This document shows, one piece after another, positions 12,087 through 29,707 of a stretch of 64,000 nucleotides of DNA. A program made the position numbers and the translations under genes. Every line of letters starts with the position of its first letter. Within the stretch, counting starts at the first letter, position 1. The notes under the pieces were generated by a model that did not search any database, was not told the origin of the DNA, and worked only from the letters and a program-made list of their open reading frames with translations. This stretch comes from Nocardioides sp. YR527 (lineage in GTDB: Bacteria > Actinomycetota > Actinomycetes > Propionibacteriales > Nocardioidaceae): NCBI RefSeq assembly GCF_900101045.1, contig NZ_FNFN01000002.1, forward strand, positions 1 through 64,000. Direction: 5' to 3'.

Positions 12087-12410
12087 TCAGCCGGCGAGCG
12101 GCGCGTGCCGCGGCCACGGCGCGACCCGCTCGAGCTGGCCGGCCAGGGACAGCAGCAGCGGCTCGCCACCGAGGTCGATGAAGAAGTGGGCGCCGAGAGG
12201 AAGGCCGTCGGGATCGACCCCGGCGGGCACCGACATCGCCGCGCCCCCGGTCACGTTCACGAGGCTGGTGAACCCTGCCATCCCCGGGGCGACGGCGTAC
12301 ATCACCCGGGTGAACGGCTCGACCTGGGCGACCAGGTCGGCGCCCATCATCAGGACCGACCAGCGGGCGATCACTCGGCTCACCTCGGAAACCTTCGGCC
12401 CGACCTTCAC
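12087..12410 (-). pseudogene. Truncated amidase (C-terminal ~107 residues only)
   Basis: The sequence matches the last quarter of amidase-signature enzymes, especially 6-aminohexanoate-cyclic-dimer-hydrolase-like ones: FTSLVNVTGGAAMSVPAG, GLPLGAHFF and a LAGQLERVAPW ending. The Ser-cisSer-Lys catalytic region that should precede it is missing, and the intact CDF gene abuts it directly. A full-length amidase has about 470 residues. A GTG at 12410 overlaps the CDF stop (GTGA) with GAGGT upstream, so a short peptide could be translated. It cannot be an active amidase. Confidence 0.75.
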
Positions 12411-13327
12411 CAGGTGACCTCATGGCATTGCGGGCTCATCTCGGTCTCGGTCTGCAGCGTGGCGTGCTCGATGCGGTGCCGGCTGGCCAGAAGTTGCTGA
12501 GCCTGGGTGCGGACGCCCTGTCCGTCGGCCTCGACCGCGAGCACCAGATGGGCGGTCGCGACGTTCATGCCGGAGGTGAGGGCCCAGATGTGGAGGTCGT
12601 GTACGTCATTCACCCCCGGAACGGCCTCGAGGTCGGCGACGACGTTCTCGAGAGCCAGGCCTTCGGGGACCTCCTGACCGAGGACCGCCAAGACCTGACG
12701 ACCGAGGACGACCGCACGCACCGCGACGAACAGGCCGATGGCGACCGCGACGACGGCATCCCAGAGCGGGAGTCCGGTCGTGGCGACCAGGATGCCCGCC
12801 ACGATGACGCCGACGCTTCCGGCGGCGTCGGCGATGACCTCGTAGTAGGCGCCCTTGACGTTGAGCGACTCGGCGGAACCCTCGCGCAGCAGGAGCATGG
12901 AGATCACGTTGACCGCGAGCCCGATCACGCCGACGACGAGCATCGGCCCGGTGGCGACCTCGACCTCCTCGCCGATCCGGCCCAGCGCCTCGACGACCAC
13001 GTACGCCGCGACGCCGAGCATGATCAGGACGGTCAGCCCGGAGGCGAAGACCTCGGCCCGGTAGGAGCCGTAGGTGCGCCGGCCCGTGGTGTCCTTCCTG
13101 GTGGCGATCCGGGTCGCGACGAGCGCGGCACCGAGAGCGACGACGTCGGCCGCCATGTGGCCGGCGTCCGAGATCAGTGCGAGCGAGCCCGACAGGAGCC
13201 CGAAGACGAGCTCGACGACCATGAAGGCGGCGACCAGGAAGAAGGTCGCCATGAGTCGGCTCCGATACCGGCCGCCGACGTGCCCGGCGGCACCATGCCC
13301 ATGACCGTGCCCGTGGCCCGCGCCCAT
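12407..13327 (-). CDS. Cation diffusion facilitator (CzcD-like Zn/Cd/Co exporter)
   Basis: 306 residues. Start ATG 13327 overlaps the CmtR stop (TGATG). A His-rich N-terminus (GHGHGHGHG) precedes six membrane helices. TM2 carries the HxxxD-type metal site (SDAGHMAADVVAL), and the cytoplasmic C-terminal domain ends in CHEVTW, the usual CzcD tail. The protein exports divalent metal by proton antiport across the inner membrane. Coupling to a CmtR-like sensor suggests Cd, Zn or Pb as inducers. Confidence 0.9.
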   Translation of the reverse strand: MGAGHGHGHGHGAAGHVGGRYRSRLMATFFLVAAFMVVELVFGLLSGSLALISDAGHMAADVVALGAALVATRIATRKDTTGRRTYGSYRAEVFASGLTVLIMLGVAAYVVVEALGRIGEEVEVATGPMLVVGVIGLAVNVISMLLLREGSAESLNVKGAYYEVIADAAGSVGVIVAGILVATTGLPLWDAVVAVAIGLFVAVRAVVLGRQVLAVLGQEVPEGLALENVVADLEAVPGVNDVHDLHIWALTSGMNVATAHLVLAVEADGQGVRTQAQQLLASRHRIEHATLQTETEMSPQCHEVTW

Positions 13328-13665
13328 CAGGCGGCTCCGTCCGAGTCGGCGGCAGCACACATGGCGGGGTCGGTGACGAGGACGACCTCCTGCAGGTCCC
13401 CCAGTGCGTGGACCAGCCGCCGGTCGGCGATCTCGTAGCGAGTGCGGCGACCCTCGGGCACCGCGACGACCAGGCCGCAGCCACGCAGGCAGGCGAGGTG
13501 GTTCGACATGGACTGCCGGCTCACCCCGAGCGAGTCGGCGAGCTCGGCAGGGTAGTCGTGCTGCTCACGCAGCCGCATCAGGATCCGTGCCCGCGTGGGG
13601 TCGGAGAGCGCATGCCCGAAACGGGCGAGCGCATCGATCGATCCGGGACTCACATCGGTGGTCAT
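13327..13665 (-). CDS. CmtR-like ArsR-family metal sensor (first copy)
   Basis: 112 residues from ATG 13665 (a GTG at 13671 is less likely). Winged helix-turn-helix with the ArsR signature LSDPTRARIL. The recognition region reads SNHLACLRGCGLV, giving the two Cys ligands of mycobacterial CmtR. A third Cys in the C-terminal tail (PAMCAAADSD) matches CmtR Cys102. This ligand set binds Cd or Pb and releases DNA. It is translationally coupled to the CDF exporter. Candidate operator sequence lies at 13684-13712. Confidence 0.88.
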   Translation of the reverse strand: MTTDVSPGSIDALARFGHALSDPTRARILMRLREQHDYPAELADSLGVSRQSMSNHLACLRGCGLVVAVPEGRRTRYEIADRRLVHALGDLQEVVLVTDPAMCAAADSDGAA

Positions 13666-13683
13666 GCGCACGACAGTACATCA

Positions 13684-13740: not shown

Positions 13741-13759
13741 CTACTATCCATGATAGTAG
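13741..13759. promoter_or_regulatory. BlaI-type operator candidate, site 1 (before cupredoxin gene)
   Basis: CTACTAT-CCATG-ATAGTAG, a perfect 7-bp inverted repeat with a 5-bp spacer, 51 bp before the cupredoxin start. The same architecture recurs before dsbA (15599-15617) and, weaker, before blaI (19268-19286). The TACT/AGTA half-sites resemble those of BlaI/MecI/CopY repressors. Confidence 0.65.
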
Positions 13760-13810
13760 GATCCACCGGGCTCGACCCACCATCGATCGCACAACCGAGA
13801 GAGAGCTTCG

Positions 13811-14254
13811 ATGAAGCCGATCGCTTCCCTCTGCCTGGCGTTCGCCATGCTGACAGGACTCGCCGCTTGCGGGGAGGAGGCCACACCGACGACTCGCCCG
13901 AGCGACGGCGCCACCTCAGCCCCGGCGACCAGCACTCCCGAGTCGTCGGCGCATGCCGAGCCGCCGTCATCAGAGCGACCGGCCGAGCCCGCGGGCCCGG
14001 TGGTGGAGGTCGCCATCAAGGGCGACGAGGTCACCCCTGCGGGCAAGCGGATCAGCGCGCAGGCCGGGGTGCCGGTGACGTTCGTCATCACCTCCGATCG
14101 GGCCGGCGGGCTGCACGTGCACTCGAGCCCGGAGCAGACACCGGAGTTCGTCGACGGCACGACCACGCTCCAGGTGACCATCGAGCGCCCGGGCCTCATC
14201 GACGTCGAGGAGCACGAGTCCGGCGAGCTCGTCGTGCAGCTGGAAGTCCGCTGA
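13811..14254 (+). CDS. Cupredoxin-like lipoprotein
   Basis: 147 residues. The N-terminus is a lipoprotein signal (hydrophobic core, lipobox LAAC with Cys at about residue 17), then a Ser/Thr/Pro/Ala linker (about 20-57) and a beta-sandwich of about 90 residues. The domain contains VAIKGDEVTPAGKRISAQAG and GLHVHSSPEQ, typical of EfeO/cupredoxin-like folds. A classical His-Cys-His-Met type-1 copper site is not obvious, since the mature domain lacks Cys, so copper binding is uncertain. Expected location is the outer face of the membrane. Start ATG 13811 follows GAGAGAG. The membrane protein gene begins 3 bp after the stop. Confidence 0.75.
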   Translation: MKPIASLCLAFAMLTGLAACGEEATPTTRPSDGATSAPATSTPESSAHAEPPSSERPAEPAGPVVEVAIKGDEVTPAGKRISAQAGVPVTFVITSDRAGGLHVHSSPEQTPEFVDGTTTLQVTIERPGLIDVEEHESGELVVQLEVR

Positions 14255-14257
14255 ACG

Positions 14258-15574
14258 ATGCTTCCCACGCACGGCATCGGCGGGGCGCAGGACCTGCCGA
14301 TCCCCGCGAGCTACGCCATCACCGGCGCCGGAGTCGCCCTGGTCATCAGCTTCGGGGTGCTCCTGGTGGCCTGGCGGCGACCTCGGTTCGACGGCGCCGG
14401 CGCCGGCCGCCCGCTGCCCGCCCCGCTCGCGGGCCTCATCGAGTCGACCTGGTTGTCGATCGTCGCCAGGGTGATCGGGATCGTCCTGGTCGGCTACGCC
14501 GCCTGGGCGATGATCTGGGGACCCGATCTCGCCCTGAACCCGATCTTCGGCATCGTGTACGTGCTGCTGTGGGTCGGCCTCGTCCCGGCATCACTCGTGC
14601 TCGGTCCGGTATGGCGCGCGATCAGCCCGCTGCGTACGTTCCATCGCGGCATCGCCAAGGTGGCCGGGACCTCACCTCGAGAAGGCCTGGTGACGCTGCC
14701 GTCATGGGTCGGATACTGGCCGGCGACGGTCGGCCTGTTCGCCTTCGTCTGGCTGGAGCTGGTCAACGAGCAGGCGAACTACCTGGCCACCGTCCAGACC
14801 TGGTTCGCGGTCTGGGCGGCGGCGCTGATCATCGGGGCCGCGGTCTTCGGGGACGTGTGGTTCGAGCGCGCGGATCCGTTCGAGGTGTACTCGACGCTGA
14901 TCGCGCAGTTCTCACCAGTGGGCCGGCGCAGCGACGGGCAGCTCGTGTGGCAGTGGCCGCTCGTCCATCTCGACGCGTTCGCACCGAGCCCGAGCAGGGT
15001 CGCCGTCGTCGCCGTGCTGCTGGGCTCGACGGCGTACGACAGCTTCAGCCGCTCCCAGCACTGGGTCAGGTTCTCCCAGGCGGTGCTGATCGACATGACA
15101 CTGCTCGGCACGCTGACGCTGCTGGCCTTCTGCGTCTTCGTCGGGGCGACCTTCTCACTGGGCACGATGGCGACCGCCGTCCCGCCCCATCTGCGGCGCA
15201 CACGGCTGCCGGCCCTGTTCGCCCATTCGGTCGTGCCGATCATCGTCGGCTACGTGATCGCGCACTACCTCACGCTCCTGCTGGAGTTCGGCCAGCAGGT
15301 CCTCATCCAGCTCAGCGACCCGATGGTGATCGGCGCGAACCTGCTCGGCACCGCCGACTGGACCGCGGTCTACTTCCTCTCCGAGCAGCCCACGACCCTG
15401 GCGACGATCAAGGTCCTCGCCGTGCTCGCCGGTCACATCCTCGGCGTCATCGCCGCCCACGACCGTGCCGTCAGGCTGCTCCCGAGAGGCCATCAGGCGA
15501 CCGGGCAGCTCGCCCTCCTGGTCGTGATGCTCGTCTACACCGTCGGCGGCCTCTACCTGCTGTTCAGCGGCTGA
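14258..15574 (+). CDS. Polytopic membrane protein of unknown function
   Basis: 438 residues with about 10 to 12 hydrophobic helices. Notable loops are a GPDLALNPIFGIVYVLLW segment and a cytoplasmic PLRTFHRGIAKVAG stretch. I recognise the general type as one that actinobacterial genomes often place beside cupredoxin lipoproteins, sometimes under the name fenitrothion hydrolase, but I cannot confirm this. No transporter or enzyme motif is clear; His, Asp and Glu residues inside membrane segments could bind a metal. It starts 3 bp after the cupredoxin stop and so is probably co-expressed under operator site 1. Confidence 0.7.
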   Translation: MLPTHGIGGAQDLPIPASYAITGAGVALVISFGVLLVAWRRPRFDGAGAGRPLPAPLAGLIESTWLSIVARVIGIVLVGYAAWAMIWGPDLALNPIFGIVYVLLWVGLVPASLVLGPVWRAISPLRTFHRGIAKVAGTSPREGLVTLPSWVGYWPATVGLFAFVWLELVNEQANYLATVQTWFAVWAAALIIGAAVFGDVWFERADPFEVYSTLIAQFSPVGRRSDGQLVWQWPLVHLDAFAPSPSRVAVVAVLLGSTAYDSFSRSQHWVRFSQAVLIDMTLLGTLTLLAFCVFVGATFSLGTMATAVPPHLRRTRLPALFAHSVVPIIVGYVIAHYLTLLLEFGQQVLIQLSDPMVIGANLLGTADWTAVYFLSEQPTTLATIKVLAVLAGHILGVIAAHDRAVRLLPRGHQATGQLALLVVMLVYTVGGLYLLFSG

Positions 15575-15598
15575 CCCGACGAGGCGTCCAGGCGTCAC

Positions 15599-15617
15599 CT
15601 ACTATTCTCGCTAGTAG
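15599..15617. promoter_or_regulatory. BlaI-type operator candidate, site 2 (before dsbA)
   Basis: CTACTAT-TCTCG-CTAGTAG: same 7-5-7 spacing as site 1, with one arm mismatch. It lies 23 bp before the GTG start of the DsbA-like gene and so probably overlaps the promoter. An extra AGTAG extends the right side. Confidence 0.62.
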
Positions 15618-15640
15618 TAGTTCTCAGGAGGAGTGCACCC

Positions 15641-16303
15641 GTGTCCAAGCAGACCAAGATCACCGCCCTAGTCGCGGGTCTGGTGGTCGCCGCGATCGTG
15701 GCCCTGATCGTCGCCTCGTCGAAAGGCGAGGCAGAGCGCCCCGCTCGCACTGCGGACACCCCGGCCGAGGAGAACGCGCTGACGCGCCCCGATGCCCGGA
15801 TCCTGGGCGAGAAGGGCTCCAGCGACGTGACCTTCGTCGAGTTCCTCGACTTCGAGTGCGAGGCGTGCGGGGCCGCGTACCCGATCGTCGAGGACGTACG
15901 GAAGAAGTACGCCGGCGAGGTCACCTTCGTCGTCCGCTACTTCCCGCTGCCCGGCCACTTCAACTCCGAGCGGGCAGCGCGAGCGGTCGAGTCCGCCGGC
16001 CGGCAGGGCCAGTTCGAGGCGATGTACAGCAAGATGTACGAGACCCAGGCGACCTGGGGCGAGGCACAGACGCCCCACGACGACCTCTTCCGCTCCTTCG
16101 CCGAGGAGATCGGCCTGGACATGAAGACGTACGACGCTGACTACGCCTCCGAGGAGGTCGCCGCACGAGTCCAGCGCGACATCGACGACGGCACCGAGCT
16201 CGGCGTGCAGGGGACGCCGACCTTCTTCGTCGACGGCGAGCCGTTCCAGCCGCAGACGGTGGAGGACTTCGACCGGGTCCTCGACGAGGCGCTCGCGCGG
16301 TGA
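15641..16303 (+). CDS. DsbA-like exported/membrane-anchored thiol oxidoreductase
   Basis: 220 residues from GTG 15641 (CAGGAGGAG upstream). One N-terminal membrane helix (about residues 7-27) anchors a thioredoxin-fold domain facing outward. The active site is CEAC within VEFLDFECEACGAAYP (about residue 70), and the cis-Pro loop is QGTPTFFVDG. The protein would introduce disulfides into exported proteins. Its TGA overlaps the VKOR start (GTGA), pairing it with a likely re-oxidant. Operator site 2 places it in the BlaI-type regulon. Confidence 0.88.
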   Translation: MSKQTKITALVAGLVVAAIVALIVASSKGEAERPARTADTPAEENALTRPDARILGEKGSSDVTFVEFLDFECEACGAAYPIVEDVRKKYAGEVTFVVRYFPLPGHFNSERAARAVESAGRQGQFEAMYSKMYETQATWGEAQTPHDDLFRSFAEEIGLDMKTYDADYASEEVAARVQRDIDDGTELGVQGTPTFFVDGEPFQPQTVEDFDRVLDEALAR

Positions 16304-16920
16304 ACGACGCATCCTCGGCGAAGGAGGCCTCCCCTGCCGCGAGCATCGCGATGGGCTGGGGCCTGCTCCTCGGCGGCCTCGTCGGGCTCGTCGCGGCCGC
16401 GGCCCTCCTGATCGAGCGCTTCAAGCTCGCACAGGACTCCTCGTACACGCCGGTCTGCAGCCTGAACCCAGTCGTCAGCTGCGGGTCGGTGATGGAGTCG
16501 GCCCAGGCCGCGGTGCTGGGGTTCCCCAACCCGCTGATCGGCGTGGCCGCGTTTCCGGTGCTCATCACCACCGGCGCCACGATCCTCGCCGGGGCCCGGT
16601 TCCGAAGCTGGTTCTGGCTCGGGCTCCAGGCAGGCGTCACGGCAGGGCTGGCGTTCATCGCGTGGTTGGTCTTCCAGAGCCTCTACCGCATCGGCGCACT
16701 GTGCCCCTACTGCATGGTCGTGTGGATCGTGGTCATCCCGACCTTCTGGTACGTCACCCTGCACAACCTCCGCCATGGCGTCTTCGGGGAGCGGGCCGCC
16801 CGCAGCAAGGCTGCAGAGGTCGCGGACGTATGGCACGCCCCGATCCTCCTGGCGGCGTTCCTTGCGGTTCTCGCGCTCATCGTGGTCCGCTTCTGGGACT
16901 ACTGGTCGACACTGATCTGA
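16300..16920 (+). CDS. Vitamin K epoxide reductase (VKOR) family disulfide-generating protein
   Basis: 206 residues with four to five membrane helices. The two expected Cys pairs are visible: CSLNPVVSCGSV in the first outer loop, and the active CPYC (ALCPYCMVVW) in a later helix. Bacterial VKOR re-oxidises DsbA and passes electrons to menaquinone, taking the place of DsbB in actinobacteria. The GTG start at 16300 overlaps the dsbA stop, so the two are made together. The C-terminal helix may be specific to this subfamily. Confidence 0.9.
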   Translation: MNDASSAKEASPAASIAMGWGLLLGGLVGLVAAAALLIERFKLAQDSSYTPVCSLNPVVSCGSVMESAQAAVLGFPNPLIGVAAFPVLITTGATILAGARFRSWFWLGLQAGVTAGLAFIAWLVFQSLYRIGALCPYCMVVWIVVIPTFWYVTLHNLRHGVFGERAARSKAAEVADVWHAPILLAAFLAVLALIVVRFWDYWSTLI

Positions 16921-16944
16921 GCACCGCACGGCCACGTTCCCAAT

Positions 16945-16982
16945 TGGTCAGCGTTCGCTGTATGGTCAGCGCATGCTGACCA
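16945..16982. promoter_or_regulatory. CmtR/ArsR operator candidate overlapping the second cmtR start codon
   Basis: TGGTCAGC-GCAT-GCTGACCA (16963-16982) is a perfect 8-bp inverted repeat spanning the ATG at 16973. A direct copy of the left arm, TGGTCAGCG, lies at 16945-16953, 18 bp upstream. Binding would block both RNA polymerase and the ribosome site. Confidence 0.6.
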
Positions 16983-17329
16983 TTGCCTCGCGGATGGACG
17001 TGATGACCCGCCTGGGTCGTGCCATGTCCGATCCCACTCGCGCGCGCATCCTGACGGCGCTGCTGGAGGCCCCGGGCTATCCCGCCGAGCTCGCCCGGAG
17101 CCTGGAGCTGACGCGCACCAACGTGTCGAACCACCTCGCCTGCCTGCGCGGGTGTGGCCTCGTCGTGGCCGAGCCCGAAGGGCGTCAAACCCGCTACCAG
17201 ATCGCGGACCCGCACCTGACCGCCGCACTGGAGTCGCTGGTGAAGGTGGTGCTCGCGGTCGACGAGGGCCTCGCCTGTGAGGACGCCGGCTGCGAGCTCG
17301 GCTGCTGCGCCGCGGAGGCGGACCGGTGA
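16973..17329 (+). CDS. CmtR-like ArsR-family metal sensor (second copy)
   Basis: 118 residues, paralogous to the sensor at 13327-13665. Shared marks are MSDPTRARILTALLE and SNHLACLRGCGLVV with the two Cys ligands. The C-terminus is Cys-rich (CEDAGCELGCC, five Cys), unlike the single Cys of the first copy, so it may bind a softer or more thiophilic metal. The stop overlaps the P-type ATPase start (GTGA), so it should control that gene. Its 20-bp operator candidate covers its own start codon. Confidence 0.88.
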   Translation: MLTIASRMDVMTRLGRAMSDPTRARILTALLEAPGYPAELARSLELTRTNVSNHLACLRGCGLVVAEPEGRQTRYQIADPHLTAALESLVKVVLAVDEGLACEDAGCELGCCAAEADR

Positions 17330-19290
17330 GCCGCCACTGCTGCGGACCCGAGGAGCCGTTGAAGCACGAGGAGCTGACACCGTGGTGGCGTGATCGCGGA
17401 CTGTTGTGGCCCGCGGTGTCGGGGATCCTGCTCGCGCTGGGGTTCCTGGCCGACTGGTTCGGCCAGGACACTGTCGCCCTCGTCCTCGAGGGCGGCGCGC
17501 TGGCCGCAGGCGCCTGGACCTTCGTTCCCGGTGCGTTGCGCCGACTGCGCCGAGGCAAGCTCGGTGTCGGGCTGTTGATGACGATCGCCGCGGTCGGTGC
17601 GGTCGCACTGGGCCGGATCGGCGAAGCAGCGGCTCTGGCGTTCCTGTTCGCGATCGCCGAGGCACTGGAGGACCGGGCGATGGACCGCGCCCAGCACGGC
17701 CTGCGCGCCCTGCTCACCCTGATCCCCGACACGGCCAGGGTCGAGCGCGACGGCCAGGTGGAGACCGTCGAGGCCTTCGAGGTACGCCGCGACGACGTCC
17801 TGCTCATCGGCGCCGGCGAGCGGGTCTCGACCGACGGCATCGTGGTCGAGGGCAGCTCGAGCATCGACACCTCGACCGTCACCGGCGAGTCCATCCCCGT
17901 GGAGGTCGCCACCGGCGACCCCGTCCCGGCGGGAAGCGTCAACGGCGGCGGGACGCTCCGCATCGAGGCCACCGCCGACGGCCGCGACAACTCGCTGACG
18001 CAGATCGTTCGGCTCGTCGAGGAGGCGCACGCCCGCAAGGGGGACCGGGCCCGCCTCGCGGACCGGATCGCCCGGCCGCTCGTCCCGGCCGTTCTGGTGC
18101 TCGCCCTCGGAGTGGCACTGCTCGGATGGCTCCTCACCGGCGACCCGCTGGTGTGGGTGGAGCGTGCCCTGGTCGTCCTCGTCGCGGCCTCCCCGTGCGC
18201 GATGGCGATCGCGGTGCCCGTCACCGTGATCTCCGCGATCGGTTCGGCCAGCAAGCTCGGCGTCATCATCAAGTCCGGCCAGGCTTTCGAGCAGCTCGGC
18301 ACGATCCGCGCGGTCGCACTGGACAAGACCGGCACGCTGACCCGCAACCAGCCCTCGGTCGTCGCGGTGACTGGAGCGAGCGGCTGGTCCGAGGACGACG
18401 TCCTGCGCCTCGCGGCCGCGGTCGAGGCGACCAGCACCCATCCGCTGGCCGAGGCCGTGCGTGCCGGCGGACCCGGCGTACGACCGGCTGCCGACGTGCA
18501 GGAGCTGGCCGGCCATGGCCTCCGGGGCATCGCCGAGGGACGCAGCGTACGGGTGGGAAGCCCGCGTTGGGTCTCCCCCGGGACGATCCTCGGCGAGGCG
18601 GCCGACTCGATGGCCGAACGAGGCATGAGCGTCATCGTCGTCGAGGCCGACGACGTCCCGGCGGGCGTCATCGGCGTCCGGGACGAGCTCAAACCCGAAG
18701 CCGCCGAGGCGATCGCGATGCTGCACCAGCGCGGCATCAGGTCGCTGATGCTCACCGGCGACAACGAGCGCACCGCGCGAGCCCTGGCCGCGCAGGTCGG
18801 GATCGATGACGTACGCGCCGAGGAGCTGCCCGCTGACAAGGCCGAGGCCATCGAGTCCTCCGTCGCCACGACTCCGACGGCGATGATCGGCGACGGCATC
18901 AACGATGCCCCGGCCCTGGCCGCCGCGACGGTGGGCATCGCGATGGGCGTCACCGGGTCGGCCGCCGCGGTGGAGTCGGCCGACGTCGCCTTCACCGGGA
19001 CCGACCTGCGCCAGATCCCGCTCGCCTTCGATCACGCCAAGCGGGGTCGAGCCATCATGACCGGCAACATCGCGCTCGCCCTGGCCATCATCGTGGTCCT
19101 GGTCCCGCTCGCCCTGGTCGGCGTCCTCGGACTGGCCGAGGTCGTGCTGGTCCACGAGCTCGCGGAGGTGGTGGTCATCCTCAACGGGCTGCGTGCCGCG
19201 AGGGTGCGCGACCTGACGCCGCCGCGGGCGACCTCGACGGGCCAGCCGCGGTCTAGGGCGTCCGCAGCTACGATGGCGGTTCGTACGTGA
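17326..19290 (+). CDS. P1B-type heavy-metal-transporting ATPase
   Basis: 654 residues from GTG 17326. There is no N-terminal HMA domain, only a short MSRHCCGPEEP tip with a Cys pair. Motifs in order: TGES (actuator), SPC in the ion-binding helix (AASPCAMAIA), DKTGTLTRN (phosphorylated Asp), the nucleotide-domain HP (STHPLAEAV) and GDGINDAPAL. An SPC motif and a missing N-terminal metal domain fit P1B-4-like pumps (Co, Fe and related ions), though the late VHELAEVVVILNG helix differs from their HEGST pattern. Control by a Cys-rich CmtR-like sensor would also allow Cd, Pb or Zn. The pump exports metal from the cytoplasm. Confidence 0.9.
   Translation: MSRHCCGPEEPLKHEELTPWWRDRGLLWPAVSGILLALGFLADWFGQDTVALVLEGGALAAGAWTFVPGALRRLRRGKLGVGLLMTIAAVGAVALGRIGEAAALAFLFAIAEALEDRAMDRAQHGLRALLTLIPDTARVERDGQVETVEAFEVRRDDVLLIGAGERVSTDGIVVEGSSSIDTSTVTGESIPVEVATGDPVPAGSVNGGGTLRIEATADGRDNSLTQIVRLVEEAHARKGDRARLADRIARPLVPAVLVLALGVALLGWLLTGDPLVWVERALVVLVAASPCAMAIAVPVTVISAIGSASKLGVIIKSGQAFEQLGTIRAVALDKTGTLTRNQPSVVAVTGASGWSEDDVLRLAAAVEATSTHPLAEAVRAGGPGVRPAADVQELAGHGLRGIAEGRSVRVGSPRWVSPGTILGEAADSMAERGMSVIVVEADDVPAGVIGVRDELKPEAAEAIAMLHQRGIRSLMLTGDNERTARALAAQVGIDDVRAEELPADKAEAIESSVATTPTAMIGDGINDAPALAAATVGIAMGVTGSAAAVESADVAFTGTDLRQIPLAFDHAKRGRAIMTGNIALALAIIVVLVPLALVGVLGLAEVVLVHELAEVVVILNGLRAARVRDLTPPRATSTGQPRSRASAATMAVRT
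19268..19286. promoter_or_regulatory. BlaI-type operator candidate, site 3 (autoregulatory, weaker)
   Basis: CTACGAT-GGCGG-TTCGTAC keeps the 7-5-7 layout of sites 1 and 2 but has mismatched outer bases (core TACGA/TCGTA pairs). It lies at the 3' end of the ATPase gene, 14 bp before the blaI start, where an autoregulatory operator is expected. Confidence 0.45.
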
Positions 19291-19300
19291 AGGAGTGATG

Positions 19301-19681
19301 ATGCGCGGCTTGGGCCCTCTCGAGGCGAAGATCATGCAGCGGATGTGGTCCGGCGACGCGCCACAGACGGTGCGCGCGGTGCACGACTCGCTGGCGGAGG
19401 ACCGCAAGATCGCCTACACGACGGTGATGACCGTCATGGACAACCTGCACCACAAGGGGTTCCTCGGGCGCGAGCGGCAGGGGCGGGCCTACGTCTACTC
19501 GCCGGCGACGACGCGTGAGGAGCACACCGCCTCGCTGCTCGGCGAAGTGCTCGCCGACGGTGGAGACCGCGCGAATGTCCTGCTCCACTTCGTCGAGCAC
19601 CTCGACGCCGACGAGCTGGAGGCGCTGCGCCGAGTGGTCACCGACCCCGACAGGTCGCCGCACCAGGACGGGGCGAGATGA
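19301..19681 (+). CDS. BlaI/MecI/CopY-family repressor
   Basis: 126 residues. ATG 19301 is chosen over 19298 and GTG 19295 because AGGAG ends 6 bp before it. The N-terminal winged helix contains LGPLEAKIMQRMW and AYTTVMTVMDNLHHKGFL, the standard BlaI DNA-binding block. The C-terminal part should form the dimer that the partner protease cleaves. Its stop overlaps the M56 gene start (ATGA). The palindromes at 13741, 15599 and 19268 are its most likely targets. Confidence 0.9.
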   Translation: MRGLGPLEAKIMQRMWSGDAPQTVRAVHDSLAEDRKIAYTTVMTVMDNLHHKGFLGRERQGRAYVYSPATTREEHTASLLGEVLADGGDRANVLLHFVEHLDADELEALRRVVTDPDRSPHQDGAR

Positions 19682-20688
19682 CCGGCGCGGTCGCGCTGCT
19701 CGCCTTCGCCGCGGCCTCGATGTACGCCGGGCAGCACCTGCTCCCTCGACTCGACGTGCTCCATCGGGCCCCCCGACTGGGTATCGCCCTGTGGCAGACG
19801 CTCGCCGCGGCGGCGATCGCGGCGCTCCTGCTCGGCATGGTCGCTCTCACCATGCCCGGACTGTCCGCCGCCGCGGCGATCGGGGAGGTCCTGCGCGCGT
19901 GCGTCATCGGGATCCAGCACCAGTACGCCTCCGTGACCGGCGCCATCCTGACGACGGCGAGCATCGTGCTCCTGGGCGTCGTCGGCGGACGTCTTGCCGT
20001 TGCCCTGTGGAGCCAGCGACGCCGAGACCTGCGCGCCCGGCGAGCTCACCTGGCCGGCCTCGAGCTGGTGGCCGAGCGCCCGGAGGAGGGCGTCGTGGTC
20101 CTCGACCAGGCGGCCGCGGCCGTCTACTGCGTACAGGGCGAACGCCGCGCCGGGACGTCGGACACCGTGGTCGTCACCCGAGGCGCGCTGCAGACCCTCA
20201 CCGCCGCCCAGATGACCCTCGTCCTTCGGCACGAGCACGCCCACCTGAGCTCGCACCATGCTCGCCTGGTCGCTCGCGCTCATGCGCTGAGCCGGGCATT
20301 TCCGTTCATCGGGTTCTTCCGCGTCGCCCACGAGCAGATCGCCCTCCTCGCGGAGATGCACGCCGACGACGCCGTCGCCGTGGACGATCGCCGATCACTG
20401 GCCGAGGCGCTGTACGAGCTCGCCCTGGCCAATCGGCCCGCGCAGGCGTCGGTCGCTCTCGCCGCCACCGGCTCCGACGTCGTCCAGCGCGCGCAACGAC
20501 TGGTCGGGCCGCACCAGCCGCTCCGACGGATCTCCATCGCAGCGCTGTCCGCAGCCATCGTCCTGGTCGCCTCGACCCCGGCCACCCTCGCCCTGGTGCC
20601 CGGCGGAGTCGGCGACGCACACCAGTGCTGCCTGAGCGCGGGCGACACTCGAGCGGCGGTGCTCAGCCCGCGCGGGGCGAATACATGA
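19678..20688 (+). CDS. M56-family (BlaR1-like) membrane metallopeptidase
   Basis: 336 residues. Two or three N-terminal membrane helices are followed by a cytoplasmic zinc-protease domain with HEHAH ([11 protein letters not shown], about residue 185), the second metal ligand probably in EMHADDAVA, and a C-terminal membrane segment (about 285-305). A short tail with a CC pair (HQCCLSAGD) follows on the far side. Unlike staphylococcal BlaR1 it has no penicillin-binding sensor domain; the Cys-bearing tail could be the sensing part (inference). It is coupled to blaI by an ATGA overlap. It overlaps the convergent ynfA-like gene by 26 bp. Confidence 0.87.
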
Positions 20689-22480: not shown

Positions 22481-22729
22481 TCATCCCTCGCCGACCTCAC
22501 GGAGCTTTTCGGCGAACTGGATGATGTCCAAGGTGAACTCGCGGCTTGGGTCCAGTTCGTCCTCGATCGTGGCTTGTCCGGCTTCGCCATCCAACCTGAC
22601 GTTGTAGACGTCGTAGGTGAAGTACCGTTCGGACTCCCCCAACTCAGCAATGGCCTCGGCCAATTGCCGACGAACGAAGGCATCGGCTTCATGGGAAAGG
22701 AACTCTTCTAGAACCTTCAAGTCAGTCAT
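22481..22729 (-). CDS. Putative immunity protein for the RHS toxin
   Basis: 82 residues, acidic (rich in Glu and Asp), cytoplasmic, no signal. ATG 22729 overlaps the RHS stop (ATGA), so the two are translationally coupled, the hallmark position of an immunity gene in polymorphic toxin loci. Fold is probably alpha/beta; features are LEEFLSHEADAFVRRQLAEA near the N-terminus and YDVYNVRLDGEAG in the middle. It is a typical size for neutralising a roughly 100-residue basic toxin domain. No named immunity family could be assigned by eye. Confidence 0.7.
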   Translation of the reverse strand: MTDLKVLEEFLSHEADAFVRRQLAEAIAELGESERYFTYDVYNVRLDGEAGQATIEDELDPSREFTLDIIQFAEKLREVGEG

Positions 22730-25700
22730 GGCGCCACCGGGAATGCGGTCTTGATCAGGCCATCTCGGACGATGACCTCGATCCCCGTGACTGGGTTACC
22801 AGCCCTGTCGGTGCCGATCACCTTACCCAGGTCAGCAGTGATTCCGCGGTCTGTCGCGGTTCCAGTTCGAAGCGCTTGGTCGACGTAGCCCTTGATATCT
22901 CCAGCGCTCGTGTCTTCGGCGTAGCGACTTACGTTCTTGAATCCGGAGTTGTACGAATGGCGGTAGTTGATGTGCTCGATAGTCGACATGAGGCCCCCAT
23001 GCTTGTAGGTGTCCGCGCCCCACTCTGCGGCGATCTTCTTGCCTGGCAGCGCCTTGATCCCATTTTCCGCGGCGTTTCCGGGTCTGAGGAGGAGCGCTCC
23101 CAAGCCAGCTGCTCCGGTCCCCACGGAGGCTCCCTCGGCTCCGGGGATCGATTCCAGACCGATGATTCCGCATATGGGCCCCGCGAGCATGCAGATCAGC
23201 ACGAGATCGGTTGCGGCACCTGCAATGGCTTGGGCATAGATGACGTCCATGTCCGGCCTGCCGTCGGCAGTGACAGGGAATGGCCCGTTGTGGCATTGGC
23301 CCCAGCATGGGGTCGTGCCGGACCCCTCGAACATGTTGCCTAGCGGCTCGAACACTTCGTCGAGCCACGGGACGCCGAACCCAGCGCCTTCGTCGCCCTT
23401 GCTGCTCTTGGTCTCGATCGGATCCTTGGGCTGTGACGGTGCCGGGGGCGGTGGCGTGCTCAGACGTTCCCTAGTGATTGCCCGGTCCTTCTCGACATCG
23501 GGCTTCTTGTCGTCTCCGATGGAGTACAGGCCAGTCGGGTCACTGAAGGTGATCGGATTCTGGTTTGCATACGAGTACGCGTTCAGCGACGCCGGGTCCG
23601 CGAGATCCACGATCGGGTCAGTGGTGACGAACAGCCCCAGCACCGGGTCGTACGGTCGTGCGCCGACCTGGAGCAGGTCCACGCTCTCATCACGGGTCGA
23701 TCCAACGAATCCCTTCTCCCCGGGGAACGTCGCCTCATCTGGGGCGGTGCCGCGGTCGGCACCGAAGGGACGCTGCCGGCGTTGCGGCAAAGACTCGTCC
23801 TGCGCGGTCGCGGCTGCGGCCTCGGCGTTCCCGAGGGCGTACTCAGGGGTGCCCTGGTCATCGACCGACCAGGTCGTCACATCGGCCGGGTTCATACCGG
23901 TCCGGGTCGCGATCAACTGGCCCGCGAACGTGTAGTCCCGCCGCGGTGCCACCTCACCGGTCTGCAGGCCGGCCCCGGTGTCCTTGGCGCTGTCATGGAC
24001 CAGTTCCACGCCACCAGGCAGGTAAACCGTCGTGACTGTCCCCGCACCGGGTTTGGTGACCCGGCGCAGCACCCGCGCACCAGCGGTGTCGTAGACCGCA
24101 GACTGCGCCGATGCGGTCTCGCTGGCAGGGTCCACCCCTGCGAGGTGGTGCTCGGCATCCCACTCCAGGCGCTGCACATCACCCTTGACGGGTCGATCCA
24201 ACAATTCGCCGGCGGCGCTGTAGGTGTATGTCCCCTCGATCGCTGCCAAGGCCGCATCCGCCGTCCCGGAGACCGTGTCGACCGCGACCGTGCCCGGTGC
24301 ATGTGCGGGACCATCAGCGGGGTAGGAGTAGGTCGCCTTGGTGGTGCCATCAGCGGTGGTGTAGGCGTCGGTGATTCGGTTGTTGGTGGCGTCCTCGAAC
24401 GTCCAGGCCTGGGTGAACCCATGCCCCGCGGGCAGGTTCCCTCCGGTCGGGGCGGTGTCGCCGCATGTCTGGGCGGTGCCTGACCAGGCCGTCTTGAGTC
24501 GGTTCAGGCCGTCGTACTTGTAGCACTCGGTCTCTTGCCAGGATGGATCCGTGGCTCCGGTGGTTTGCTTGTCGGTGCGAACGCTGGTCACGTTCCCGGC
24601 CAGGTTGTAGGCGTAGGTCTGGAGCTGGTCGAGCTCGGGGCGGGTCTGGCGGTCGATCTGCTGCTCGGTCAGGCGGCCGGAGCCGGGCTGGTAGCGGTAG
24701 GACTGCCAGGACATGTGCCCGTAGGTGTTGCCGAGCGCAAGCTGGTCGACTTGGCTGTAGGCCGAGTAGGCGGTGGCGATGACGTACTGGCCCATCGAGC
24801 CGCCCATTCGGATCGGGCGGCCGAGGTCGTCGTAGTCGTAGACGACCTTCTCGGCGGGCAGCACCGGTGCGGTCGCGCCGGTCGGGGTGATCGGGTAGTA
24901 GCTGGTCGCGGCGACCTGGCCGTCGAGTCGGTAGGACTGTTTGGTCCGGTAGCTGCCGGCGACCTCGTTCGGGACCAGGCCGGTCTTGGCGGCGAGGGTG
25001 ACGTGGCTGTCGGTTGGCTGCCCGGTTGCGTTGTAGGCGTCGATGGCCTGGGTATAGAGCGCGGCGCCGTCGCGGTAGCGGGTGGTTGAGGTCAGCTGTC
25101 CCGTCTGGATCGTGTCGTAGACCCAACCAGCAACCTGCTTGCGGGTCCCGTCGCCGGCGACCTCCTCGAGCGCGGTCTGGCGACCCATCGCGTCGTAGCT
25201 GGTGCGCAGCTTCGTGCCGTTGGCGTCCACGGACTCGACCGGGCGACCGAGGTTGTCGTAGCTGGTGGAGGAGTCCCCGGCATCGGGGTCACTGGTGGTC
25301 AGGCGGTGGCCGAGCTCGTCGTAGGTGTAGGTCCAGGTGTTGTCCTTCTCGTCCTTGACCGTCTTGAGGAGGCCGGTGGGGGTGTAGCCGTAGCGGGTGA
25401 CGACCTTGGTGGCGTCGGCGGCGCCGCTGTTCGCGCCGCCGTCGGTGTGCTTCCACTGCTGACTGGTGCGGCCGCGGGCATCAGCCACCACCGTGGTGGC
25501 GACGCCACCGGCCGGTGGGGTGGTGTGGGTCAGGTTGGCGTCGTAGGAGTACCGGGTCACCGGGTCGGCGGTGGTGCCGACCCAGTTCGCGGTCTGCGTC
25601 AGCGGCCGAGAGGCACCGTCGTAGGTGGTGATGATCGACTCGGGAGCCGCGTCGACCGGGTCCACGAACGTAGTGGTCGGGAGCCCGGAGGCCAGGACCT

Positions 25701-28700
25701 GGTTGTCGACCTGGCTGACCCGGCCGGCGGTGTCGTAGTTGGTGGTGGAGACGACTCGGCCCTTGGCGACCTTGTTCTTCTCATCGGTCCACCGGGTCTC
25801 GGCTTGGGTCTGTACCTGGCGTCCGAGAGAGTCGAACAGGGCGGTGCTGGTGACCTGGCCAGGCGCCGTCCCAGCGGTGCCGCCGGTGAGGGTCTTGGTG
25901 GTGATCGCGTTCATCTTCGCGCCACCCGCTCCGCGCAGCTGGTAGGTGTAGGCCAGGTCCGGGGTTGAGCTGGTGTTGCCGGGCAGCTTCACCGTGACCA
26001 GGCGACCGAGGCTGTCGTAATCGGCGGTCGTGGTCCCGCCGGACGGGTCGGTCACGGTGGTCGGGAGCCCCCACTTGGGGTCGTTGATGGTGGTGGTCTG
26101 GTGCCGAGCCAGCGGGCCGGCTCCGTCAGGGTCGGGGCTGGTGGAGACCACCTTGGTCGGGCTCCGGCCGGTATCGGGCGTGTAGACGATGGAGGTCGCT
26201 GCACCTGCGGCGTCGGTGACCGTCTTGACGCGACCGTTGGCGTCGTACGTGGTCTCTGCGGTGGTCTGCCAGGCGTCATCGACCAGGGCCTTGGTGGTGG
26301 TCACCAGCCCCTTGGCGGGTGCCTGGCCGACACCGCCGTTGTCGTAGGCCCACTGGGTGCCCTCGAGCAGGCCCGAGGCTGCGGGCGGCCCGCTGTCGCA
26401 GGCGCCTTCGGCCTTGCGGGACTGCGAGGGATAGCTGCTCAGCCCGTCGACGACGGAGCTGGGGTAGGTGGTGTAGAGGCAGGTCCGGTCGGTCGTGTCA
26501 GCGGATGCGGTGTCGCTGGTCTTGGTGTAAGCGTGGTCATCGCGCTTGACCTCGCGACCCAACGAGTCGTAGTCCATGGTGACCTTGACGTACCGGTCAC
26601 CACCGCCGTCAGCGGTTGCGCGTGGGCTGGTGGTCAGAGTGCTGGCGGTCTGCACCCGTCGCGGATCACGATTGGCTGTGTGCCCGGCCACCGCGGGAAG
26701 GACGTCGTAGGTGGTGCTCTGCTTGGAGACCACCGTCTCGCCCGCGTAGGTCGTGGTCGAGGTCGGCAGACCGGCACGTGCTCTGGCCTCGGGGTCCAGT
26801 CCGGTTCCGTCCGAGCCCATGCCGCGGTCGAAGGTCGCGACCGTCTTGGTGCGGGGGTGGCCGGTTGTGTCGGCGCCGGCCTCACCGACGCGGGTGGTGA
26901 CCTTCGCGTAGCCCCGCCACTGGTTCCATCGCTTCTTGCGGTCCAGGGCCAGCGGGTCATCCGAGCGCGCCCAGGCCCCGTCGGAGGCGCCGTCGCCGTC
27001 TGCGTCGCCGTAGGTGTAGCTGGTCAGGACCTGGAGCCCGATGCCAGGAGCTTGGGTGACCGCGGTGACGACGTACTTGTAGAACCAGTGCTTCTCTTCA
27101 GGGAAGGTGTCGTAGTGCGCCTCGTCGGGGAAACACCGTTGGGTGTTGGTCGCGGGGTTGGGGAAGGCGCCGTCGACCTTGCACGCCGGGGCGCTGTACT
27201 GGACGCCGAGGACCGAGCCGAGCTCATCGATGATGCTTGTGATCCGCGGCCGGTACATGGGCGGGAGGTTGTCGGTGGAGGTATCGACCCTGTTCTTCAT
27301 CGGGGTCGACCGGAAGGTGACCGTGCCCGCCGGGTCGTCAATGCCTGGTGTGGCTGCGCCGGCATAATGGTTGATCGAGGACAGCCACAGCGTGACATGG
27401 TCACGGTCGTCCTCCTTCTTCGGGAACACGAACCCGAAGGTCCACTGGTCGACTGGCTCGAACCCGTCGTCGGGTCCGGTGCCCGTGTAGGTCTGGGTCA
27501 GCACTCGGGTGAGCTGTTTGGTGGAGAAGAATGTGGGTGAGAACTGGGTCTGCAAGTCGCAGTCGCCGGAATTGCAGACCATGTCGAAGGGGACGTCGGG
27601 CCACTGGTTGGCATTCTCTTCGTTCAGGGTGTTGCCGCTGCCCGGTGAGCAGTTGTAGGACTTGCGGCAACGCTCCGTGACGTCGAACAGGACCCGGGCT
27701 GGTGCGGCGCCGGTGTCACCGGCCTTGGTGCCGTAGGTGACCTTGGTGAGGTAGCCGCCGCGGTCATAGCCGGTCGCGACGCCACCGCGCTCCTCGTCGG
27801 GAACCGCGCCGATGTTCTCGTTGGCGCGATAACGGTTCGTCTCCTTGGCCCAGTGGTAGTTCACAGTGTTGCCGACGGGGTCAGTCACCTGGGTCAGGTT
27901 CCAGCGCCACACCGCGTCCTGGCCCGAGGCACCGAAGGTCTCGGCGTGGCCGGGCTCGCCGGAGTGGTTGCCATAGACGGGGACCCGCAGGGACGAGTTC
28001 GCGCCGGTGTCGGCGTCACTCTGCCCGAAGAGGTATCGGGTGCCGTCGGGGGTGGTGACCTGGAACCGCTCGAACTGGCCACCCTTGACCCCCAGCCGGG
28101 TGATCACCGAGCCGTCGTCGGTCCGCAGACGGAAGTCGTCCGAACCACCGGCTGGGTCTTTGACGAGCTCGCCGGCGTGGGCGCTCAGGGAGAGGTTCAG
28201 GGCCTCGCCGCGCCAGCACAGGTCTCCGGTGTCGCGCTGGGCGTTGTTCGCGGACGCACCGTTGTGGTCGGCCTGGTCCTCGGCGCACGGCGCGTAGGTG
28301 CGCTCGATGAACCCGGGCGCCATGTCCCAGCCGAGCCCGACCCAGGAGGCCTGGACGTTGCCCGACCCGACCACGCCATCGACCGCACCGGAGTCATAGG
28401 TCAGCCCCAGACCGGGCTCCATCCCGGAAGCGACCGGCGGGGTCTGCAACGGGTAGGACCACGTGAACGAGCCGCTCGATCCGCCGCCAGACCACGACGC
28501 TGCAGTCCCTAGCGACGTCGCGGTCCAATCACCGAGCTCGCCGGTCGGAGTGGTCTCCGCCATCAGCACCACACCAGCCGTCGCCAGCTCGGCGGTGGCC
28601 TCAGACGCCCCGGCCGACTTGGCCTCGGCAGACTTCTCGGCCGCCTTCGGCTCGTTGGAGCCTTCCTCGACCGTCCCAGCCTCGGGCTCAGATGCTCCAG

Positions 28701-29640: not shown

Positions 29641-29707
29641 GCCAGGTGTCCTTGATCGATCCGAGACCCGAGAACCAAGTGATGCTTGAGTCGAGCGGCG
29701 TACAGGG

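Follow-up and report, generated by a model that had tools for sequence, protein, structure and literature searches.

A predicted BlaI/M56-controlled regulon of envelope redox and metal genes in Nocardioides sp. YR527

The island and its dyads

Positions 1 to 64,000 of contig NZ_FNFN01000002.1 of the soil actinobacterium Nocardioides sp. YR527 (the window, meaning this whole 64 kb stretch) contain an island in which genes for disulfide formation and metal handling lie close to a blaI repressor gene and a gene for an M56-like membrane protease. Palindromes of the form CTACTAT-N5-ATAGTAG, here called 7-5-7 dyads, stand in front of several of these genes and are considered here as putative operators for BlaI. 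The features needed for the argument are given below in window coordinates.

13741-13759: putative BlaI-type operator 1 (site 1, CTACTATCCATGATAGTAG), a perfect 7-5-7 dyad between the divergent ArsR1-CDF and cupLP-Mem438 genes
15599-15617: putative operator 2 (site 2, CTACTATTCTCGCTAGTAG), one mismatch; the dsbA-like gene starts 23 bp downstream
19268-19286: weak candidate operator 3 (site 3, CTACGATGGCGGTTCGTAC), directly 5' of blaI, within the 3' end of the ATPase gene
19295-19681, + strand: blaI (Penicillinase_R PF03965, 97 bits; cut-off 22.6)
19442-19444: codon of Asn50 in the BlaI recognition helix AYTTVMTVMDN
19678-20688, + strand: M56-like integral membrane zinc protease, 336 residues, with HEHAH at 185-189 and EMHADD at 226-231
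19918-19926, + strand: His81-Gln-Tyr83 in the helix 2-3 loop of M56 (corresponding to EL1 of BlaR1), which may supply the other half of the sensor
20626-20631, + strand: Cys317-Cys318 in the C-terminal tail of M56, proposed sensor
13811-14254, + strand: cupLP, presumably a cupredoxin-like lipoprotein, HxH...ExH, no Pfam match
14258-15574, + strand: Mem438, polytopic membrane protein in no Pfam or NCBIfam family
15641-16303, + strand: DsbA-like thioredoxin-fold oxidase (Pfam)
16300-16920, + strand: VKOR (Pfam), probable partner of DsbA
13327-13671, - strand: ArsR1, CmtR-like (129.7, below the curated cut-off of 150); operator 1 starts 70 bp upstream
12407-13360, - strand: CDF metal efflux gene, after ArsR1; CDF genes recur beside the operator in relatives

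A preliminary description of this DNA had placed a perfect dyad before a "cupredoxin" gene and a one-mismatch dyad before dsbA-VKOR, and both are present, with 0 and 1 mismatches to CTACTAT-N5-ATAGTAG. When the whole 6.19 Mb genome was scanned, sites 1 and 2 were the sole matches with up to two mismatches, and no third place was found at that threshold. Within the 64 kb window, three matches with up to three mismatches were found (one of them overlapping site 2 in a shifted register), where shuffled sequence would give 0.13. Matches with three mismatches elsewhere in the genome include three unrelated places. The same pattern read backwards served as a control, and at one mismatch (in a slightly narrowed form) it has no match in this genome.

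A matrix trained on 138 sites from relatives, each within two mismatches, with the window excluded and identical sites counted once, ranks sites 1, 2, and 3 first, second, and third among 63,982 window positions. Their scores are 31.4, 25.8, and 14.9 bits, and the next position in the window reaches 9.2; the minimum of the training sites, 17.0 bits, is partly set by construction through the two-mismatch limit. Weak sites of the site-3 form (CTACGATGG...TCGTAG) occur 13-45 bp 5' of blaI in six stretches from relatives. At a threshold of at least 14.9 bits, sites are found in 35 of 56 distinct blaI-upstream regions (identical sites counted once, the window's own region being included as the lowest of the 35), compared with 45 of 1420 windows of 132 bp drawn at random from these stretches. 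Because matching weak sites precede blaI in relatives far above the level of random windows, site 3 is a weak but plausible operator. It has mismatches at 4 of 14 positions.

Distribution of the dyad and the class of BlaI

Within Nocardioides, 49 of 215 genomes (this one included) match the dyad within one mismatch, mostly in clusters, and the reversed control gives 3 hits, in three genomes. In a set of 58 genomes, 24 (again with this one) match within two mismatches, and several congeners have clusters of 3-11 sites. A thin sample of the taxonomic class gave perfect matches in 7 of 296 genomes, including this one, and none for the control.

The presence of sites follows one type of BlaI. A profile (A1) of 12 island BlaI proteins from nine genomes splits the BlaI proteins into two classes, one scoring at least 157.9 bits (the island class) and the other at most 131.1 bits (the low-scoring class). 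Island-class BlaI is encoded in 48 of 49 site-bearing genomes, and in 39 of 40 when the nine genomes that supplied the profile are removed, compared with 2 of 49 sampled from the 166 site-less genomes (Fisher p 5e-24, a statistic that ignores kinship). The two site-less genomes with an island BlaI, G067 and G079, carry two-mismatch sites before DsbA, CopC or CDF genes. Proximity points the same way: of the 133 sites listed, 122 are no more than 25 kb from an island-class blaI, the other 11 being on other contigs (one in genome G102). Conversely, 49 of 55 island-class blaI genes have a listed site within that distance. Nine of the 49 site-bearing genomes, and perhaps one site of a tenth, do not enter these counts. 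The genome of strain YR527 yields just one BlaI match at E 1e-15.

The recognition helix (AYTT...DN) offers a further link between protein and dyad. At one position of this helix the island BlaI proteins have Asn (59 of 64) or Lys (5 of 64), and all 22 of the low-scoring class have Arg. Among Asn-type blaI genes, 36 have a TACTAT-type operator in their own promoter, none a TACTAC-type, and 6 are ties; among Arg-type genes the corresponding numbers are 0, 22, and 0, and one Lys-type gene is a tie. The resulting ratio omits the 7 ties and the blaI genes without an operator within two mismatches (53 Asn, 6 Arg, 16 Lys, and 4 Ile), and many promoters are related or duplicated between loci, so that there are fewer independent events than genes. 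Asn usually pairs with adenine and Arg with guanine, and the change of the operator base from T:A to C:G therefore fits the change from Asn to Arg. At loci outside the genus, picked by their M56 protein, Asn-type genes gave 10 TACTAT-type operators, 4 ties, and 12 without an operator, and Arg-type genes gave 1 TACTAC-type and 5 without; none was discordant.

Regions upstream of the low-scoring class of blaI mostly carry tandem (C/G)TACTAC-N5-GTAGTA(C/G) dyads with the identical 7-5-7 geometry. A cydA-like N-terminus is encoded in 17 of the 20 stretches around these genes (Pfam-confirmed in two), divergently from blaI in the three stretches listed. These appear to be housekeeping BlaI/M56 pairs beside cytochrome bd genes with tandem TACTAC-N5-GTAGTA dyads (L100-L119, for example L103:5375-5466), an arrangement that suggests control of cydAB by BlaI in Nocardioides.

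Outside the genus, 69 loci were picked by the M56 protein alone. A site of at least 22 bits is found in 28 of them and one of at least 26 bits in 20. For the same 69 loci, matrices with permuted columns (60 in all) found on average 0.45 loci at 22 bits (maximum 19, probably from near-identical permutations) and none at 26 bits. Sites of 22 bits are found at 19 of 34 loci where BlaI scores at least 155 bits, at 3 of 9 between 145 and 155, and at 6 of 26 below. Strong sites stand, for example, at loci of Arthrobacter, Cryobacterium, Actinomadura, Glycomyces, and Mycolicibacterium. No site accompanies many of the BlaI/M56 pairs of Nocardia and Nonomuraea, so that operator use is not uniform. Among 18 stretches of relatives chosen by their sites, 11 contained BlaI and/or M56 genes (L030, L031, L033-L036, L038, L041, L042, L044, and L047). 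Transposase-like genes, which we take to be of the IS3 type, were seen by eye at the operator islands L038, L039, and L046 (G013). Together with the patchy presence of the dyad (49 of 215 genomes), they suggest that the island spreads horizontally.

The operators and their restriction to the island class of BlaI are computed features of these genomes, and palindromes of this kind stand upstream of the genes that BlaI would control. The proposal that BlaI acts on 7-5-7 dyads to control envelope redox and metal genes is supported in silico by the near-uniqueness of the sites, their co-occurrence with one class of BlaI, their proximity to its gene, and the Asn/Arg covariation. It is also backed by the sites before blaI itself and by the recurrent thiol and copper targets described below. 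We regard this wiring, with BlaI on the dyads, the local envelope genes as targets, and M56 as partner, as strongly supported by sequence comparison.

Targets, protease, and the nature of the signal

The operons that begin beside 201 sites (within two mismatches, in 66 stretches) were tallied, an operon beside tandem sites being counted twice. Genes for thiol chemistry, cytochrome c maturation, and metal transport recur among them: DsbA 31, VKOR 30, ResB 25, TlpA 22, BlaI 21, CcsA 20, CDF 20, M56 17, ArsR2 13, Mem438 9, cupLP 8, CopCD 8, CtaG-CopD 7, and CopC 6, with CopC/CopD/CtaG at 21 combined. Recurrent groups outside these labels were assigned through Pfam from one representative each, as Lnt (9 members), M23 peptidase (7), FliL (7), DsbD-type fused to a cupredoxin domain (5), DsbD/CcdA-type (4), DUF3093 (4), and amidase (3); the representative of one further group of 8 members had no Pfam assignment. 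No beta-lactamase is among the labelled target families, although no search was aimed at it and 140 tallies carry no label. A thiol-redox gene lies within 10 kb of the island blaI in 49 of 60 stretches, and a CopC, CopD, CtaG, cupLP or Mem438 gene in 45 of 60, compared with 0 of 20 for either within 5 kb of the low-scoring class of blaI; at an equal 5 kb, the island blaI has DsbA in 29 of 60 and CtaG-CopD in 36 of 60. The ArsR1-CDF genes, divergent from site 1, probably also belong to the regulon.

The gene behind the perfect dyad deserves a different description from the one first given. Type-1 blue cupredoxins bind copper through a Cys-His-His-Met ligand set. In eight aligned cupLP sequences the only invariant Cys is Cys20 of the lipobox, and HxH and ExH are conserved (two further sequences, L062 and L096, lack the His of ExH). 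Since the Cys/Met copper ligand is missing from the eight, cupLP is not a blue-copper protein, and that reading of "cupredoxin" was rejected. Mem438 adjoins cupLP at all 18 cupLP genes detected; it belongs to no Pfam or NCBIfam family, and a fold search with its poor AlphaFold model (predicted local distance difference test, pLDDT, 64) gave no match at E 0.001. Distant homologues of Mem438 were seen on plasmids of haloarchaea, Rhizobium, and Sulfitobacter, and the 15 matches listed are annotated as hypothetical or carry no annotation.

On two actinobacterial plasmids the cupLP-Mem438 pair lies near genes for methane/ammonia-type monooxygenases, which are copper-dependent enzymes, and in one of them sigC is just upstream.

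L200:10710-13332: cupLP-Mem438 locus on an M. chubuense plasmid
L201:1-11338: cupLP-Mem438 locus on a Rhodococcus plasmid

According to PMC7924339, SigC prevents copper starvation in M. tuberculosis. These neighbours tie cupLP-Mem438 to copper handling, perhaps in supply rather than detoxification. No BlaI operator was found around the pair on the two plasmids (best 7.8 bits).

The protease retains an intact HExxH...E zinc motif, with H185, E186, H189, and E226 unchanged across 38 sequences. Among solved structures, BlaR1 ranks first against its AlphaFold model of pLDDT 88 (Z 11.2, 217 aligned residues, root-mean-square deviation 5.4; Foldseek E 0.036), although helical models may reach such a Z by chance, and partial homologues on five plasmids are annotated as M56. 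A penicillin-binding sensor domain was looked for through transpeptidase-type Pfam matches, of which there are none, and the protein ends 18 residues past its Cys pair. This pair, Cys317-Cys318, lies in a short tail after the last helix, where conservation of Cys318 reaches at least 90% (M56 alignment A3). Among paired island M56 proteins of the genus, a Cys is found in the last 45 residues in 47 of 47 and in the last 30 in 45 of 47, a count that omits island blaI genes without an M56 paired by the gap rule or with an M56 of at most 200 bits. In M56 of the low-scoring class a Cys occurs in the last 30 residues in 4 of 20, by reading inside the last membrane helix; within the set compared, only the island class has a Cys in the tail itself. 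A His-Tyr-Pro motif in the helix 2-3 loop is present in 18 of 19 proteins with a Cys-Cys tail versus 14 of 28 with other tails (Fisher p 0.001). In BlaR1, according to PMC9834060, the EL1 loop and the C-terminal sensor meet and signal; by analogy, the Cys tail and the loop at the EL1 position may form a reduced sensor. One M56 frame beside an island blaI (L053:8988-9884, genome G100) looks shifted or broken; for G100, a single site within one mismatch is listed.

The repressor has a candidate cleavage point. His98-Phe99 of BlaI aligns with an Asn-Phe pair of MecI, and Asn-Phe is the pair cut in S. aureus BlaI (PMC9834060). Among 64 island BlaI proteins, the residue aligned with this scissile position is Phe in 48, Leu in 12, Gln in 1, and Lys in 1, and was not found in 2. 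The BlaI profile matches 2g9w, the closest solved structure (E 4.9e-36), as well as structures of MecI and BlaI.

From these features we infer repression, BlaI cleavage, and the nature of the signal. It is likely, in our judgement, that the dyads are BlaI operators and that M56 senses copper- or thiol-type envelope stress, cleaves BlaI, and so releases the regulon. BlaI dimers would hold the cupLP-Mem438 and dsbA-vkor promoters shut, and probably the divergent ArsR1-CDF promoter too, with weak autoregulation possible through site 3. M56 would sense an extracytoplasmic condition at a small site composed of the Cys tail and the EL1 loop (His-x-Tyr), the signal most likely being excess or misplaced copper or another thiol-reactive stress, such as another soft metal or oxidised thiols. 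Once triggered, it would cut BlaI near His98-Phe99, and the released programme would repair or complete envelope proteins through disulfides, copper handling, and metal export, to which relatives would add cytochrome c maturation and lipoprotein acylation.

We lean, though only slightly, towards a wider reading. A subclass of BlaI/M56 found across Actinomycetota would have swapped the beta-lactam sensor for a minimal metal/thiol sensor at the membrane surface, made of a C-terminal Cys or Cys-Cys tail and the His-x-Tyr EL1 loop, where in BlaR1 loop and sensor touch. It would command, by BlaI proteolysis, a regulon for the completion of extracytoplasmic proteins (disulfides and cytochrome c, delivery of copper, acylation of lipoproteins, and export of metals), insulated by the one-residue Asn/Arg switch from the cytochrome-bd-linked BlaI. 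If this is true, the beta-lactam resistance switch would be one branch of a wider form of membrane-protease signalling that serves metal and thiol homeostasis of the envelope. Four features bring this within reach of direct experiment: the operator motif, the set of targets, the Asn/Arg switch, and the tail Cys.

Known systems resemble parts of this arrangement. As in staphylococcal BlaI-BlaR1 and MecI-MecR1, a Penicillinase_R repressor adjoins an HExxH membrane zinc protease; unlike them, the island M56 has a short Cys tail in place of the penicillin-binding sensor domain, and the genes labelled as targets serve disulfide formation, cytochrome c, and copper. The classical operator of the BlaI/MecI family is TACA-N2-TGTA (PMC7253601), a form that the island operator CTACTAT-N5-ATAGTAG does not take. 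Another parallel is M. tuberculosis BlaI (Rv1846c), the nearest solved repressor structure being 2g9w. Its partner Rv1845c is a sensor-less M56 protein. The M. tuberculosis repressor differs in having Arg at the helix position that is Asn in the island BlaI, which places M. tuberculosis BlaI with the TACTAC class. The CopY/CopR copper repressors of Firmicutes share the Pfam family and copper-related targets, and CopY binds copper through C-terminal CxC motifs (PMC7253601). The island BlaI, in contrast, has no Cys, scores 41.1 with TIGR02698 against a cut-off of 121.95, and is paired with a protease; direct copper sensing of the CopY type was rejected because of the missing Cys. The proposed circuit would work like BlaI/BlaR1; the repressor is a member of the BlaI family and not CopY, and the protease, having no sensor domain, is not BlaR1. 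Among the actinobacteria searched, pairs of BlaI with an M56 protein that has no penicillin sensor are common, and the literature found ascribes neither a copper nor a thiol signal to them. Nor did it describe a BlaI-M56 regulon of the copper/thiol kind, which does not establish that none is in print.

Alternative explanations and neighbouring genes

The alternative that survives best accepts that BlaI and M56 control the dyads and places the signal in respiration or the cell wall, for example in lost electron flow or wall damage. We consider it possible, if clearly the less probable choice of signal. The cydA-like genes beside the low-scoring class of blaI lend it weight, as does the link of M. 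tuberculosis BlaI to respiration, this repressor being reported to control the atp operon; site-adjacent genes of relatives also include M23, M15-like, amidase, Lnt, and cytochrome c maturation genes. A respiratory or wall signal sits less well with a tail Cys specific to the island class, with thiol oxidoreductases, CopC/CopD/CtaG, and metal exporters as the commonest labelled targets, and with cupLP-Mem438 near copper-type monooxygenase genes on two plasmids.

It is very unlikely that the dyads are instead bound by one of the two ArsR/SmtB proteins of the island (CmtR-like) as an ordinary metal-sensor circuit. Such a circuit could draw on the position of site 1 in the ArsR1/cupLP intergenic region, on the CmtR-Cd ATPase genes within the island, and on ArsR-like genes in 21 of the 66 site-bearing stretches. 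Island BlaI, however, is present in 57 of the 66 (a biased comparison, many stretches having been chosen by BlaI), and ArsR binding leaves unexplained the co-occurrence with one BlaI class, the 7-5-7 geometry 5' of the low-scoring class of blaI, and the Asn/Arg covariation. ArsR/CmtR was disfavoured as the dyad binder on these stretch counts and this covariation.

A third alternative, in which the palindromes have no dedicated regulator and serve as parts of promoters or terminators or recur by chance, is extremely improbable. TACTAT would fit a TANNNT -10 element, the sites are near start codons (median about 43 bp), and the control matches at least as often as the dyad when 2-3 mismatches are allowed, but site presence and absence follow one BlaI class, the control within one mismatch has only 3 hits in 215 genomes, and permuted matrices find none of the 69 outside-genus loci at 26 bits compared with 20 for the real matrix, on which grounds a chance origin was rejected.

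Several observations weigh against BlaI/M56 control with a copper or thiol signal. At loose thresholds the reversed control is commoner than the dyad in the strain's own genome (113 vs 6 at three mismatches and 6 vs 2 at two), and at two mismatches it also matches most of the 58 genomes. Raw counts at 2-3 mismatches therefore mean little, and the weight of the argument falls on where the dyads with 0-1 mismatches stand and on their being there at all. Sites or BlaI were the grounds on which most stretches were chosen; many stretches nearly duplicate one another, and common descent makes the counts larger than they should be. Genome G102 has one site within one mismatch and no island-class BlaI, and 6 of 55 island blaI genes have no listed site within 25 kb. 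Five of the 64 island helices carry Lys, 53 Asn-type blaI genes are without a scorable operator of their own, and outside the genus a blaI gene's own operator reaches at least 18 bits in 15 of 67. On the side of the protease, the Pfam M56 model gives no match and M48 only a sub-threshold one; the tail is modelled at low confidence, and the model does not show how it sits; and the M56 of the window is the sole exception among the Cys-Cys proteins, with His81-Gln-Tyr83 and no Pro. As to the signal, the 140 unlabelled tallies, the wall-enzyme genes at sites of relatives (M23, M15-like, and amidase), and the tie of the low-scoring class to respiration count here too, as does a pump beside blaI that is of the Cd type with its own CmtR, so that copper is not the only candidate signal.

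This pump belongs to a pair of genes on the + strand between dsbA-vkor and blaI.

16973-17329, + strand: ArsR2, identified as CmtR, a Cd/Pb sensor (NF047906, 168.7 bits; cut-off 150), probably a separate circuit
17326-19290, + strand: Cd-family heavy-metal P-type ATPase (TIGR01512, 486 bits; cut-off 313.5), probable partner of CmtR

The cassette (16940-19290) lies as if inserted into the regulon, and by eye a different repeat, TGGTCAGC/GCTGACCA, precedes cmtR. A leftward UPF0060 gene (Pfam/NCBIfam) is also part of the island. No tRNA gene was found adjoining it, the two tRNA genes of the window being at least 15 kb away. Elsewhere in the window, an RHS-repeat protein of 2367 residues is encoded at 22726-29829 on the - strand, and a short open reading frame downstream (22481-22729) may be its immunity partner.

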